In this document: piece by piece, positions 26,907 to 60,486 of the stretch
Position numbering within the stretch: position 1 is the stretch's first letter
Layout of the letters: each line of letters starts with the position of its first letter
DNA from: Taibaiella sp.
Lineage (GTDB): Bacteria; Bacteroidota; Bacteroidia; Chitinophagales; Chitinophagaceae
DNA length: 64,000 bases
Direction of reading: 5' to 3'
Assembly: GCA_013815385.1 (NCBI GenBank)
Contig: JACDGL010000002.1
Coordinates: 62,001-126,000, forward strand
Translations under genes and position numbers: made by a program
Notes under the pieces: model-generated
Databases searched by the model: none
Told to the model about the DNA's origin: nothing
Seen by the model: the letters and a program-made list of their open reading frames with translations, nothing else

Positions 26907-27052
26907 ATTTTAATTCCTATAATGTAATATTAAGCTATTTAGTTAAAGGTCTAGCTTATTGCATACAATTAATAATAATGTAGATATCTTAATTTGGAAC
27001 GCAGGTCTTGACGCTCATGTATTGCAACTATAATCCATCTATATGAATCTTC

Positions 27053-27151
27053 TCCTCAAATTTCCATTTTATAATAGAAGTGCGAACTGAAGTTCGGGTA
27101 AAATCCTTGCCCGCAAATTATATTAAATTTACTTGAATGGAAATTTCAGGA
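27053..27151. repeat. 99-bp element with terminal inverted repeats and nested stems
   Basis: The ends are 16-bp inverted repeats with one mismatch (27053-27068 and 27136-27151; perfect core AAATTTCCATT / AATGGAAATTT). Inside are nested pairs TATAAT (27070-27075) with ATTATA (27117-27122) and GCG (27082-27084) with CGC (27112-27114), plus hairpins CGAACT-GA-AGTTCG (27083-27096) and GGGTAA/TTGCCC (27096-27101 / 27107-27112). It may be a MITE-like element, a structured RNA or a binding region. Confidence 0.45.
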
Positions 27152-27229
27152 AGTTTGAATGGATAGTAGAATCCCTCATTTAAACTTTAGTTTGGGAATA
27201 TTGACTTTAAATACCCCAACCCAAATTAC

Positions 27230-27237
27230 TACCTTTG
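27230..27237 (+). promoter_or_regulatory. Promoter -7 box (TACCTTTG) for the 2-oxoacid oxidoreductase gene
   Basis: TACCTTTG, followed by CAT, is an excellent match to the Bacteroidota TAnnTTTG element and lies 36 nt before the ATG. The nearest upstream TTG is at 27201-27203, a 26-nt spacing, which is longer than the usual 17-23. Upstream lie two AACTnnAGTT palindromes (27085-27094 and 27183-27192). Confidence 0.6.
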
Positions 27238-27273: not shown

Positions 27274-29118
27274 ATGTCAGTTCCGGTACAGGTTGTAGAA
27301 GATGTTGTAATAAAATTTGCAGGTGATAGTGGCGATGGCATGCAGCTTACCGGCAGTCAGTTTACTAACAATACAGCCCTGATAGGCAATGACCTTTCTA
27401 CTTTCCCCGATTTTCCAGCTGAGATACGGGCCCCCCAGGGTACTGTACCGGGGGTCAGTGGGTACCAGCTTCACTTTTCAAGCCAGCGCATTTTTACACC
27501 AGGCGATAACTGTGATGTACTGGTGGCTATGAATGCTGCTGCACTTAAAGTAAATCTAAAAACTTTAAAGAAAGGCGGCATTATTATAGTCAATACTGAT
27601 GGGTTTGATAATAAGAACTTGCGTCTTGCCAATTATCCGGATGGCATCAATCCTATAGAAGATGGCTCGCTGGAAGGGTATGAAGTCCATAAAATAGATG
27701 TTACCCGCCTTACCAGGGAAGCGCTTAAAGACATGCAGCTTGGCACTAAAGAAAAAGACCGGGCTAAGAATATGTTTGTACTTGGTTTTTTATACTGGCT
27801 CTATAGCCGCGACCTTACAAGCACATTCTCGTTTTTGCACGATAAATTTAGCAAGCAGCCAGATATACTGGATAGCAATATAAAAGTATTGCAGGCCGGT
27901 TATAATTATGGCGATACTGTAGAGGCCTTTAGTGTACGTTATAAAGTAGAGAAAGCTAAGTTACCTTCCGGCAATTACCGCAGCATTACAGGCAACACAG
28001 CACTTTCATATGGGTTAATAGCTGCGTCAGAAATGTCGCAGTTACCTATCTTCCTCGGCACTTATCCTATTACCCCTGCATCAGATATTTTGCATGAGCT
28101 TGCACGTTACAAAAATTTTGGCATCCGCACTTTCCAGGCCGAGGATGAAATAGCAGGTATCTCGGCAGCCATAGGTGCTGCCTATGGGGGCAGCCTGGGC
28201 ATTACCACTACGTCCGGGCCTGGCATGGCACTCAAAACAGAGGCTATGGGCCTGGCAATGATGCTGGAGGTGCCGTTATTAATAATAAACATTCAGCGCG
28301 GTGGCCCATCTACAGGTTTACCAACCAAAACTGAGCAAAGTGACCTATTGCAGGCTTATTACGGGCGCAATGGCGAAAGTCCTATACCTATTATATCTAC
28401 CTCTACACCCAGCGATTGCTTTTATGCAGCTTACGAGGCTGTGCGCATAGCCGTACAGCACATGACACCTGTTATTCTGCTAAGTGATGGATATATAGCT
28501 AACGGTGCGGAGCCATGGCGTTATCCGCAAACCGCAGATCTTGAGCCAATTAAAGTTTCCTTCAAGAAAAAGCTGGAAGAAGGGGAGTTACAGTTCCAAC
28601 CTTATCTGCGCGATGAAAAGCTGGTACGCCCATGGGCTGTACCCGGCGAACCAGGACTGGAGCACCGTATAGGGGGTCTGGAGAAAGAAGATATCACTGG
28701 CAATATATCTTACGAGGCAGAAAATCACCAGCATATGGTGAAGACCCGCCAGGCAAAGGTGGACAAGATAGCAGATTACATTCCACTACAGGATCTGGAT
28801 AGCGGTCCTGCCGAAGGAGATGTGCTGGTACTCGGTTGGGGCTCTACTTATGGAGCAGTAAAAAGTGCTGTGGCAGAGCTGCAAGGCAAAGGCGTAAAGG
28901 TAGCACATGCCCATCTCCGCTATATGCGTCCTTTCCCACGCAATCTGGGTGAAATATTAAAGAGCTATAAAAGGGTATTGATACCGGAAATAAATAATGG
29001 CCAGCTGATTAAGATAATCCGCGATAAATACATGGTTGATGCTGTTGGATACAACAAAATCAAAGGCGTACCCATTACCCGAGCTGAGCTTGCTGATGCC
29101 ATTACCAACCTGCTATGA
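27274..29118 (+). CDS. korA: 2-oxoacid:acceptor (ferredoxin) oxidoreductase, fused gamma-alpha subunit
   Basis: 614 residues. The first 190 or so form the gamma domain (KFAGDSGDGMQLTGSQF, FPDFPAEIRAPQGTVPGVSGYQ) and residues from about 200 on form the alpha, pyrimidine-type domain (YPITPASDILHELA, EDEIAGISAAIGAAYGG, TTTSGPGMALKTEA). The enzyme class makes acyl-CoA, CO2 and reduced ferredoxin from 2-oxoglutarate or related acids. The beta subunit, which binds TPP and the 4Fe-4S cluster and normally lies directly downstream, is absent: the next gene (29181) is unrelated and 62 nt away. The beta subunit must be encoded elsewhere if the enzyme is active. Its start is fixed by the promoter and by the family N-terminus. 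Confidence 0.93.
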   Translation: MSVPVQVVEDVVIKFAGDSGDGMQLTGSQFTNNTALIGNDLSTFPDFPAEIRAPQGTVPGVSGYQLHFSSQRIFTPGDNCDVLVAMNAAALKVNLKTLKKGGIIIVNTDGFDNKNLRLANYPDGINPIEDGSLEGYEVHKIDVTRLTREALKDMQLGTKEKDRAKNMFVLGFLYWLYSRDLTSTFSFLHDKFSKQPDILDSNIKVLQAGYNYGDTVEAFSVRYKVEKAKLPSGNYRSITGNTALSYGLIAASEMSQLPIFLGTYPITPASDILHELARYKNFGIRTFQAEDEIAGISAAIGAAYGGSLGITTTSGPGMALKTEAMGLAMMLEVPLLIINIQRGGPSTGLPTKTEQSDLLQAYYGRNGESPIPIISTSTPSDCFYAAYEAVRIAVQHMTPVILLSDGYIANGAEPWRYPQTADLEPIKVSFKKKLEEGELQFQPYLRDEKLVRPWAVPGEPGLEHRIGGLEKEDITGNISYEAENHQHMVKTRQAKVDKIADYIPLQDLDSGPAEGDVLVLGWGSTYGAVKSAVAELQGKGVKVAHAHLRYMRPFPRNLGEILKSYKRVLIPEINNGQLIKIIRDKYMVDAVGYNKIKGVPITRAELADAITNLL

Positions 29119-36058: not shown

Positions 36059-36652
36059 ATGAATCCCTGGCTACAACATCCTGTTCTATTAGAAGGCAAG
36101 CGGGTAACGCTGCGTCCACTTGAACGAGCAGACCTACCAGCGCTGCATAACATAGCCACTAATGAAAGGATATGGGAACACTACTCTGTAAAGGGTAATT
36201 ATCCTGCCGTGTTTGCTACAGAAATGAGCAGTGCGCTGCTGATGAAAACAGCAGGCGAACAATATCCATTTGTAATTACAGACAAGCAGAAAAATATCAT
36301 CATCGGCAGTACCCGATTATATAACCTATACCAGCAACACCGCAAGGGAGAGATAGGCTGGACATTTTACCACCCTGATTACTGGGGCACGGGGTACAAT
36401 ACAGAATGTAAGCTGCTATTGCTTACTTACTGCTTCGAAACCCTGAAGCTGGTACGGGTACAGTTCCAGACGAATGAAACAAACCTGCGCAGCCGCGGCG
36501 CTATTGAGAAGATAGGCGCTACCTATGAAGGCCTGTTGCGCAAAGAACGCATCATCAGTAATGGAACTTTCCGTAATACAATGATGTACAGTATTACAGA
36601 TGAGGAATGGGAAGGAGTAAAGAAGATGCTGGCAGGAAAAGTTAATGGGTAG
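36059..36652 (+). CDS. GNAT N-acetyltransferase, RimJ/RimL-like
   Basis: 197 residues, with the family N-terminus VLLEGKRVTLRPLERADLPAL and the acetyl-CoA binding segment near EIGWTFYHPDYWGTGYNTECKLLLLTYCF (about 101-129), where the pyrophosphate loop is of the W-G-x-G-Y type. NLRSRGAIEKIGATYEGLLRKERI (about 142-165) is a hallmark of the RimJ/RimL subgroup that acetylates protein N-termini or small amines. The target is unknown. It ends the ParA-containing run; a 490-bp non-coding stretch follows. Confidence 0.87.
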   Translation: MNPWLQHPVLLEGKRVTLRPLERADLPALHNIATNERIWEHYSVKGNYPAVFATEMSSALLMKTAGEQYPFVITDKQKNIIIGSTRLYNLYQQHRKGEIGWTFYHPDYWGTGYNTECKLLLLTYCFETLKLVRVQFQTNETNLRSRGAIEKIGATYEGLLRKERIISNGTFRNTMMYSITDEEWEGVKKMLAGKVNG

Positions 36653-36994
36653 CGGTGCTATCGCGAAAGAAGATCAGCAGGCCCTCCACGTCATGTCTTT
36701 TTCTGACAATTATTCCTGTTATCCACAAAAAGGTAAAGAAAAATTTAAAAAAATCCATGAAATGTGGATAGCGCGAGAGGAAAGCCTTTGCCCACAACCA
36801 TATTGCAAAATAAAATATGGTAATTTACGTCCGAAAAAGGTAATAAAAGGTAAAGAAAGTGCGATTTTACTTCCATTTTACTACCATAAAGGTAATATTC
36901 CCCGAGATGAAACGCGTTTACCCTTGTTAGCTAATCATTGATGTAGATCAGCATCACTGCTATTTTATTTTCAATATTTCAAAGAACTTGTTGG

Positions 36995-37043
36995 GTGCAA
37001 GATAAGGTAGCAAAGAGGGGGTTTCCAAATAATGATATCCACA
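36995..37043 (+). repeat. Dispersed intergenic repeat, copy A
   Basis: A 49-nt block aligns without gaps to 60265-60313 at 39 of 49 positions. It contains GGGGTTTCCAAA (37018-37029), five variable bases, then ATATCCACA (37035-37043). It lies between two plus-strand genes. Confidence 0.6.
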
Positions 37044-58245: not shown

Positions 58246-60042
58246 CTATTTTTTCTTACCACGCTCCGCCTGTGCTTTCTGTAGCTCTTCCATCTTCTGC
58301 GCCCACTTGGAGGGTGCTACAGGTTTGTTCTTATTTTCCTGCAGCTGTGCGTGTATGGCTTTTTCATTAATGAAGTAGCGCTGTATCACAAATTGCTGCA
58401 ATATGCTAAGGGTATTGGATACAAAGTAATATAACGTAAGCGCCGCAGCCATTTTATTGAACACACCAAGGAACACGAACGGGAAGATGAAGGGCATATA
58501 CTTCATCATAGGATTATTAGGATCCTGCGGGGTCATATTGCGGTTGTACACAGCCAGGAATAAGCTGGATGCCGTCATCAGCAATGTAAACAGACTAACA
58601 TGATCGCCATAAAGCGGTATGCTGAATGGCAACTGGGCTATACTATCGTAAGTAGAAAGATCGTGCGCCCATAGTACCGATTTCTGCCTGAACTCAATAA
58701 GAGAAGGGAACAGGTAATACATGGCAAATAATATAGGTAGCTGGAACAGCATAGGCAGACAGCCCCCCAATGGATTAACGCCCACTCTGCGGTACAATTT
58801 CATCTGTTCCATGCCAAACTTCTGCTGGTCGCCTTCATGCTTTTTGCGCAGCTCATCAAGCTCCGGCTTCATAACACGCATTTTAGCGGCGGAGAGATAG
58901 CTCTTGTAAGTAAAGAAGGAGAGCACCAAACGCATAAGCAATGTAAGTATCAGAATGATGACCCCATAATTGCTTACTACAGAGGTAAGGAAGAAGAACA
59001 GCGGTAGCAGTATCCATTTATTGATGTACTTAACAAATGCCATGATGCCATTGCCCATAGGCACCATTTCTTCCATGCCCAGCTTATACCTATCCAGAAT
59101 GCGGTAATCATTAGGGCCTATATACCACTGAAGCGATACCGTACCATTACCCTTTACCGGCGCTTCCAGCACATCTTTTGTAACTACAGCAGTGTTACTA
59201 TCCACCTTTACCGATGCATCTATATTTACTTTATTAAACCCATCCTTACAAACCAGTATGGAGTTGAAGTATTGCTTGCGGAGCCCTACCCAGTAAGCAA
59301 CATCGCTAAGTGATTTTTTGTCTTCGCTCTTTATGGTAAAATAATCATGGTCTGTATTTTTGTAGCGGTAGTATACCTGCGAGTTGAGGCGCTCTGTAGC
59401 TATATCCTTCTCGGTGGGCAGTGCCGCGGTATTCCAGTTGAGCGAAACAGTATTGGCAGGCATGCCGCCCAGGCGTATATCGCAGCGCATCATGTAGTCA
59501 TCAGCAGGAAGGGTATAAATTATATCCACGCGCTTGCCATTGCCCATATCTGCGCCAAAGTCTATGGTCTTGTCGCCGTTAGGCTCGTCTTTTATAACAG
59601 GGGTAAAATACAGATCACCCGTAGCTACTGCACCACTATTAACAGGCAGTATAGCGCTTAGTTCATTACCCTTGCCATTAAACAGGTACAATGGCTGCTG
59701 GGAATACGTCTTGTAGTTTTTGACCAGCGCACTTACAGGGTACGCCCCCTTGGTATTGAACTGTAATATCAGTTTCTTATTCTCCAGTGTTACCGTCTGC
59801 GCCTGGCCATTGAATGCTGCGGGGAGGCTACGGCGGATAGAATCATTCACCGTGTTATCCGGTGCGGCCATTTGCCTTACCCTGCTGCTATCTACCACAG
59901 GTACGGGATGCGCTTTGGCATAAGCCACAGAGTCAGTATGTTTTTGTTGTAAATATTGTGTCTGGGTATGCTGGTTATAGCTTACATAACCAATTACCAG
60001 CACCGCCAGCAATGAAAAACCAATGACTGAATTGCGATCCAT
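58246..60042 (-). CDS. yidC: Membrane protein insertase YidC
   Basis: 598 residues. A first membrane helix (about 7-22) is followed by the large periplasmic beta domain (about 60-340) and the Oxa1-type core from about residue 345 with five helices. PLGGCLPMLFQLPILFAMYYLFPSLIEFR (about 421-449) is the signature. The C-terminal tail is basic (RGKKK), as needed for ribosome contact. It inserts inner-membrane proteins alone or with SecYEG. A consensus -7 box lies 17 nt upstream. It is followed by ksgA after 38 nt. Confidence 0.94.
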   Translation of the reverse strand: MDRNSVIGFSLLAVLVIGYVSYNQHTQTQYLQQKHTDSVAYAKAHPVPVVDSSRVRQMAAPDNTVNDSIRRSLPAAFNGQAQTVTLENKKLILQFNTKGAYPVSALVKNYKTYSQQPLYLFNGKGNELSAILPVNSGAVATGDLYFTPVIKDEPNGDKTIDFGADMGNGKRVDIIYTLPADDYMMRCDIRLGGMPANTVSLNWNTAALPTEKDIATERLNSQVYYRYKNTDHDYFTIKSEDKKSLSDVAYWVGLRKQYFNSILVCKDGFNKVNIDASVKVDSNTAVVTKDVLEAPVKGNGTVSLQWYIGPNDYRILDRYKLGMEEMVPMGNGIMAFVKYINKWILLPLFFFLTSVVSNYGVIILILTLLMRLVLSFFTYKSYLSAAKMRVMKPELDELRKKHEGDQQKFGMEQMKLYRRVGVNPLGGCLPMLFQLPILFAMYYLFPSLIEFRQKSVLWAHDLSTYDSIAQLPFSIPLYGDHVSLFTLLMTASSLFLAVYNRNMTPQDPNNPMMKYMPFIFPFVFLGVFNKMAAALTLYYFVSNTLSILQQFVIQRYFINEKAIHAQLQENKNKPVAPSKWAQKMEELQKAQAERGKKK

Positions 60043-60058: not shown

Positions 60059-60066
60059 CAAAGGTA
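60059..60066 (-). promoter_or_regulatory. Promoter -7 box of yidC
   Basis: Minus-strand TACCTTTG (plus CAAAGGTA) is a perfect TAnnTTTG box 17 nt before the yidC ATG. I could not find a -33 TTG at the expected distance. Confidence 0.58.
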
Positions 60067-60486
60067 GTGGTAAATTAACTAATTGAACCGTTGATGCTTA
60101 TAAGGTGAAAATGTTATATTTTGAAACTTCCGCAAACTTCCATTAAGGTAATATTCTATAACTGCTACTGTAAAGGTTTTGCGGTGAAACTTCCGGTGCT
60201 AAGTGGTAGATAGGAATGGAGGTTTGAAGTATTATTGGGGGCGCATGGTGGATAGTTTAGGTAAGTGTAAGATACGGTGGCAGGGAAGGGGTTTCCAAAA
60301 GAAAATATCCACAAATATTAAGGTATTTTTTGGATCGGCTGCTGTATATGGGCAAACTTGAGGCTATCGCAATGGCTATTAGCTTTTTCATCTCTTTTGC
60401 AGGCGGTGGACTGCATGAATTACGAATAAGGTACTATAACAGTTTAAATAAAAACTATACCTGAACCTATATTTGAATGATATATC
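60067..60486. other. Intergenic region between nuoN and yidC
   Basis: 420 nt with no protein-coding signal. It contains ACTTCCATT (60136-60144) directly followed by AAGGTAATATTC (60145-60156), repeated GAAACTTCCG segments (60123-60132 and 60186-60195), GGTGGATAG (60248-60256) and copy B of the dispersed repeat. The yidC -7 box is at its left end. No terminator hairpin for nuoN was recognised. Confidence 0.45.
60265..60313 (+). repeat. Dispersed intergenic repeat, copy B
   Basis: Aligns without gaps to 36995-37043 at 39 of 49 positions. It carries GGGGTTTCCAAA (60288-60299), five variable bases and the DnaA-box-like ATATCCACA (60305-60313). Orientation is given relative to copy A. It sits between the minus-strand genes nuoN and yidC. 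Confidence 0.6.

Follow-up and report, generated by a model that had tools for sequence, protein, structure and literature searches.

Regulators of the OmpR/PhoB type act on operators made of tandem sites, and boxA sequences also occur at CRISPR arrays among the targets of the Nus factors. The repeat arrays described below resemble OmpR/PhoB operators in that their direct repeats follow one another at roughly one helical turn, and differ from them in that the sequence code varies by copy and by genus while the layout is kept, and in lying downstream of the promoter. In Flavobacterium psychrophilum, a transcription start-site map identified the promoter motif SM5, TAnnTTGY at -12 to -5, beside the sigma-A motif TAnnTTTG, and mutations at one operon support SM5 (PMC9723704, available text). 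The element studied here shares with SM5 promoters this -7 box, one base shorter than that of sigma-A. There are also differences: the TGTGGATAT site that is present here is not mentioned in the available text of that study, and the SM5 genes reported there concern LPS, amino-acid scavenging and gliding, whereas housekeeping genes are common here. Many copies also carry the boxA word GTTCTTTGA, which recalls the boxA leaders of rRNA operons targeted by Nus factors (PMC4807359, PMC5725501, available text) in its sequence, its strand and its place near the leader start; here it is found at dozens of loci preceding protein genes rather than rRNA, and its antitermination role is putative. Each part of this cassette is of a known kind, and we did not find the combination, preceding dozens of housekeeping genes, described in the available text of the literature on Chitinophagaceae and Bacteroidetes intergenic repeats, TAnnTTGY, boxA leaders and CRISPR boxA.

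Our starting point was a 49-nt block that occurs in two intergenic regions of a 64,000-nt stretch (the window, G000:C30:62001-126000) of the genome of Taibaiella sp. (G000, 3.25 Mb in 39 contigs). A sequence-only reading of the window had aligned positions 36995-37043 with 60265-60313, and we recovered the same ungapped alignment, with 39/49 identical bases and with GGGGTTTCCAAA, 5 nt and ATATCCACA at the same spacing in both blocks. When the 49-mer was compared on both strands with the intergenic sequence of the window, 15 pieces that total 5445 nt and lie outside ORFs of at least 100 aa (the query's own piece excluded), the best real match was 39/49, against a maximum of 30 in 200 dinucleotide-preserving shuffles. 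The proposal that the block is a common dispersed element, for which more than five further copies had been set as the test, was borne out by 52 copies at E<=0.01 in the genome itself. On the opposite strand, the block has the look of a promoter (AATGTGGATAT-n5-TTTG-21 nt-TAnnTTGY), a reading that fits most of the data and that was missing from the earlier proposals. From its sequence, we consider that the block is probably a dispersed distal promoter, which at each of the two reported sites reads along the minus strand. The features of the three copies in the window are as follows.

36995..37043, minus strand: candidate promoter core of copy 1, the reported block (sequence, profile match, base counts, spacing)
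36997-37043, minus strand: boxes of the copy 1 core, with TGTGGATAT at 37035-37043, the -33 TTTG at 37026-37029, 21 nt, and the -7 box TATCTTGC at 36997-37004
36979..36987, minus strand: putative boxA of copy 1, GTTCTTTGA (sequence, pattern search)
36763..36900, minus strand: type A repeat array of copy 1, with TTTTACTTCCATTT at 36866-36879 and TGTGGATAG at 36763-36771 (plus-strand letters)
60265..60313, minus strand: candidate promoter core of copy 2 (sequence, profile match, base counts)
60267-60313, minus strand: boxes of the copy 2 core, with TGTGGATAT at 60305-60313, the -33 TTTG at 60296-60299, 21 nt, and the -7 box TATCTTAC at 60267-60274
60124..60229, minus strand: type B repeat array of copy 2, with tandem GGAAGTTTGCGGAAGTTT at 60124-60141
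60059..60066, minus strand: sigma-A-like box TACCTTTG, proximal to the gene downstream of copy 2 (sequence)
58246..60042, minus strand: yidC, the co-directional gene downstream of copy 2 (ORF; YidC models)
26977..27025, plus strand: degenerate core of copy 3 (profile match and sequence)
26979-27025, plus strand: boxes of copy 3, with TGTAGATAT at 26979-26987, TTTG at 26993-26996, 21 nt, and TGTATTGC at 27018-27025
27057..27159, plus strand: type-B-like array of copy 3, with AATGGAAATTTCAGGAAGTTTGAA at 27136-27159 (sequence)
27230..27237, plus strand: TACCTTTG box, proximal to the gene downstream of copy 3 (sequence)
27274..29118, plus strand: 2-oxoacid:acceptor oxidoreductase subunit alpha, the co-directional gene downstream of copy 3 (ORF; TIGR03710 above cut-off)

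Copy 1 has no co-directional gene downstream, the GNAT acetyltransferase at 36059-36652 being on the plus strand, and copy 2 showed no boxA when one was looked for downstream of its core. Copy 3 was absent from the sequence-only reading; its -7 box TGTATTGC agrees with TATMTTGC at 6/8 positions, and the profile matches its upstream half only (C30:88976-88999, E 0.0048). A second shared block had been described beside the first two copies: a GGAAGT core is indeed common to both, and the array around it is of type A in copy 1 and of type B in copy 2, so that the two regions are only partly one homologous block. The 11-nt insert that had been noted there is as long as one repeat unit of these arrays, which are phased at 10-11 nt. 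As a side observation, a 98-aa ORF at 36645-36941 on the plus strand overlaps the array downstream of the copy 1 core; it has no Pfam match and is probably spurious.

A 66-bp query returned 41 matches at E<=10 in the Taibaiella genome, and a sequence-only profile built from 26 copies returned 62, which include the 52 at E<=0.01. With the same profile, six of 59 genomes (Taibaiella and its relatives, none of the latter from the same genus) had a match at E<=0.01: 52 in Taibaiella, 49 in G033, a genome of another genus, and one weak match in each of four others. A second profile, built from 43 Taibaiella and G033 copies and searched with stricter filters, with at most 14 copies scored per genome, matched 31 of 394 genomes of the family at E<=0.001, with at least six copies in 11 genomes of 7 genera, Taibaiella and G033 included. 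The genome counts of both profiles therefore indicate that the element reaches many copies in only part of the family. In a wider search of genome contigs, the exact core pattern had two matches, both in "Bacteroidetes bacterium" MAGs (SZAS-30; UBA1947, DDET01000011.1). For the analyses below we pooled 141 cores from six genomes (Taibaiella 50, G033 48, G305 15, G085 10, G188 10, G266 8). One locus of G266 (L249, G266:C3:140800-143705) holds three closely spaced core copies.

Base counts over the 50 Taibaiella and 48 G033 copies delimit a conserved unit of about 50 bp with sharp edges, which reads AATGTGGATAT[CG]TTTATTTGGAAACCCC, then a stretch of weaker conservation, then TAGTATMTTGC. The core consensus can be written AATGTGGATAT[CG]TTTATTTGG-...-TAnnTTGC; each of two genera has about 50 copies of it, and several more have many. 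The TTTG at -33, which we take to be a promoter box, lies 21 nt from TAnnTT in 126 of the 127 pooled cores that have both. At -7, 112 of the 141 cores have TAnnTTGY, 7 have TAnnTTTG, 17 have another TAnnTT and 5 have no box, so that one of the two promoter forms (TAnnTTTG or TAnnTTGY) is present in 119/141. The spacing and box counts are partly circular since the profiles themselves contain the boxes. The ten G188 copies examined have TAnnTTT[GA] at this place. Upstream, the 9-mer is TGTGGATAT in 71 of the 141 cores, TGTGCATAT in 21, TGTGGACAT in 15, TGTGAATAT in 10 and TGTGTATAT in 7; in these 9-mer and box counts one core is truncated at a contig end and a few are one base out of register. 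This 9-mer had been taken for a possible site of DnaA or of a nucleoid protein, given that ATATCCACA is one base off TTATCCACA, the DnaA consensus. We regard such a site as extremely unlikely: the strict box, which on this strand would read TGTGGATAA, occurs in 0/141 copies while the four variants above are common, the 9-mer keeps a constant place next to the -33 and -7 boxes, and the orientation of the element follows the genes. Separately, at two Taibaiella loci (L180 and L189, C22:4239 and C31:70492) type B arrays follow TTTTGG-n-TATCTTGC, with CTGTAGTATCAT or a similar word replacing TGTGGATAT, and these are possibly a second promoter class with a different activator site.

The orientation of the core was examined at the 118 of 141 copies where both flanking genes were called, with genes taken as ORFs of at least 100 aa by length alone, the 23 copies without a called flank left out and cores in tandem at a single locus (L047, L100, L104, L241, L249) counted separately. 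The downstream gene is co-directional with the core in 88/118 (binomial p 8.6e-8), and the upstream gene lies on the core's strand in 61/118. By arrangement, the 118 loci comprise 46 same-direction tandems, 42 divergent pairs in which the downstream gene is read, 15 convergent pairs and 15 opposite tandems, and the tandem comparison alone is 46 vs 15 (p 9e-5). At the remaining 30/118 loci, copy 1 included, the downstream gene is on the other strand. The co-directional gene mostly lies about 250-600 nt from the core, and it is often a housekeeping gene. Among 34 Taibaiella proteins scanned (co-directional, at least 120 aa, at most 800 nt away), 18 scored above NCBIfam cut-offs, mainly as core enzymes: paaA, sucC, prs, uppS, yidC (domain model), der, pntA, dnaX, ffh, frr, paaE, icd, priA, acn, polA, carA, fusA and hflX. 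As judged from the genes of this list, housekeeping genes may thus be common downstream of the cores. Four orthologues (dnaX, carA, a CshA-like helicase and a GH3-like gene) stand downstream of a core in both Taibaiella and G033, against about 0.3 expected for roughly 38 and 25 genes out of an assumed total of perhaps 2900, and ffh is downstream of a core in both Taibaiella and G188.

A sigma-A-like box of the gene's own, TAnnTTTG between 90 nt before and 60 nt after the called start, was found for 42 of 87 co-directional genes, where shuffles give about 6; for these genes, the distal promoter may therefore be dispensable. The same figure bears on a different explanation, proposed in part by the sequence-only reading, in which the copies are small RNA genes of one family, each promoting a separate trans-acting RNA of boxA and array that does not feed the gene. 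Such a family could account for promoter, boxA and repeats forming one unit, for the many genes with their own box and for copy 1 with no co-directional gene. Terminator-like sites are nevertheless present in just 7/87 leaders (3 after shuffling, and 19/87, commoner, on the reverse strand), and orientation follows the downstream gene. Covarying stems had been suggested as a check; over the alignment of 26 copies, 0 base pairs were predicted in the core, and six singly folded stretches gave z-scores from -1.1 to 1.9. Rfam at gathering score returned tRNA only in the window, with no Flavo-1, and at 15 loci, at E<=1, it returned two sub-threshold matches (Bacteroides-1, 29 bits of 43, at L051; RefA1) and again no Flavo-1. 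The Flavo-1 and Bacteroides-1 RNA motifs are likewise widespread Bacteroidota elements (Weinberg 2010; PMC9723704, available text; Rfam), and Flavo-1 has been reported both sense and antisense to transcripts (PMC9723704, available text). Our element differs in having no Flavo-1 match and a Bacteroides-1 match, below cut-off, at one locus. Based on this, we consider a small RNA family very unlikely, and both this reading and that of a DnaA site weak.

Within 210 nt downstream of the core, the boxA word GYTCTTTGA occurs on the same strand in 67/141 copies, on the other strand in 0 and upstream in 1. It is found in 24/50 Taibaiella copies, 35/48 of G033, 7/15 of G305, 1/8 of G266, 0/10 of G085 and 0/10 of G188; being absent from the last two genomes and rare in G266, it is not a fixed part of the element. 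In Taibaiella it goes mostly with type A arrays, and most type B copies are without it. The longer word GYTCTTTGAMATNNTG has 23 occurrences in that genome, vs 0 for a reversed control. A search for the 16S gene did not find it in the Taibaiella assembly (completeness given as 100), nor in G014 and G021, and so the word was compared with the rRNA leaders of relatives. There, GTTCTTTGAAAG lies 120-168 nt upstream of the 16S start word in G022 (two copies), G004 and G033, and the exact boxA word was missing from the two 16S leaders examined in G018. By analogy, the word may act as a boxA in the leaders described here. At three further Taibaiella loci (L142, L152 and L157; C22:28813, C31:9458 and C35:34333) a type A leader with boxA occurs without the TGTGGATAT core, and GTATCATAC words are abundant upstream.

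The interval from promoter to gene contains direct repeats with a phase of 10-11 nt, which fall into several sequence types, to which we gave letters: AATGGAAGTA/AACCTTTTT (A), GGAAGTTTG (B), GACATTTTG (D), CCGGAAATT (E), TTTATACCC (F) and ATGGGGCA (G), with the words CGGGCA, CGGACA, CGGCAGAAA and GGAAATAAC in other genera. Repeats of 8/9 bases at exactly 10 nt are present in 74/135 downstream stretches, compared with 9 upstream and 4 in shuffled downstream sequence; at 11 nt, the figures are 41/135, 16 and 9. As this phasing is one helical turn, it suggests proteins placed side by side on the DNA. The type of array can differ between orthologues, that of dnaX being B in Taibaiella and E in G033, and that of the helicase D in Taibaiella and E with G in G033. 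Types A and B of Taibaiella, screened by motif in G033, were not found there save for one weak B call. In Taibaiella, the type B tandem has 32 occurrences (at most 2 mismatches, control 0), some of them without a recognisable core. We also considered that type B arrays might be reversed copies of the others. A common-centre profile from 14 G033 and G305 seeds matched G033 (two matches on the other strand), G305, one G266 site and three weak sites in Taibaiella; no type B array was among these matches, so the idea is not supported.

The copies could also be a mobile miniature element carrying a promoter, in which the cassette of core, boxA and array would be copied by a transposase acting in trans, and insertions reading into a gene would be kept while those against a gene would be lost. 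About 50 intergenic copies, arrays that are tandem and mixed, and the 17 type A copies, which are 42-87% alike (median 65%) over about 300 nt and are of a type not seen in G033, all point in this direction, and the type A similarity suggests spreading inside the Taibaiella genome. An 8-nt inverted pair, TGTGGATA/TATCCACA, lies near the ends of type A and was found in that type only, but the type A homology extends past the TATCCACA word. Furthermore, the same orthologues are occupied in two genera, and the Y1 transposase (PF01797) has one gene in Taibaiella but was not found in G033, which carries 49 copies and is a draft assembly of 90% completeness. The Taibaiella Y1 locus is devoid of array and core words save one 9-mer; with this near-absence of cassette words and no Y1 transposase in G033, a link to RAYT is not supported. 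The element resembles REP/BIME and MITE repeats in its many intergenic copies and mosaic or tandem layout, and differs from them in its non-palindromic core, an orientation that follows genes and the lack of a RAYT in G033 (PMC3733652, PMC4596501, available text). We therefore see a mobile element as an unlikely explanation of the set as a whole; mobile spread does fit type A, and the promoter and mobile readings may both be true in succession.

Returning to the distal promoter, the arrangement that we find likely from the sequences is a promoter with an activator site, a partly antiterminated leader, an operator array, and then a gene that often has its own promoter. Evidence from outside the profiles that favours it comes from the strand bias of boxA, the orientation of the downstream genes, the orthologues shared between genera, the phased repeats downstream and the scarcity of terminator-like sites in the leaders. 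Counting against it are the 30 loci with an opposed downstream gene, the genomes lacking boxA, the genes with a box of their own, the terminator-like sites on the reverse strand, and array types that differ between Taibaiella and G033 and between orthologues. RNA polymerase would start just past the TAnnTTGY box, at a rate set by a regulator on TGTGGATAT (about -51 to -43). Where boxA is present, a Nus complex would prevent early Rho termination of the untranslated leader, and a DNA-binding protein, occupying neighbouring units of the phased repeats, would determine how much transcription reaches the gene. The set would then be a growth-linked regulon superimposed on each gene's own promoter, and where no co-directional gene follows, as at copy 1, the element would have arisen as a by-product of cassette spread. 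To our knowledge, control of core growth genes in Bacteroidota is little known beyond a few model genera, and our data suggest a shared control of such genes within one branch of this phylum. A bolder version, possible but on balance doubtful, is that a Bacteroidota clade has a genome-wide second layer of control, in which dozens of growth genes (replication, translation, the TCA cycle, protein export) stand behind distal promoters sharing an activator site, many leaders carry the rRNA boxA, tying supply to Nus-factor availability, and the phased operator array switches its sequence code between lineages and orthologues at constant layout, with several regulators competing. If the promoter reading is right, it provides a defined list of genes, a promoter site and a boxA, all open to direct testing, and raises the question of why antitermination in the manner of rRNA operons would serve housekeeping genes. 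The arrays, constant in layout and changing in code, would also be a natural case of regulator-site turnover traceable across genera.

Finally, other dispersed repeats, for example GGCGAGATTGCTTCGCTACGCTCGC and GGCCAGCGATTACCGCTTGCTGCC, adjoin cores at several loci (L009, L013, L028, L029 and others), forming a mosaic of intergenic repeats.
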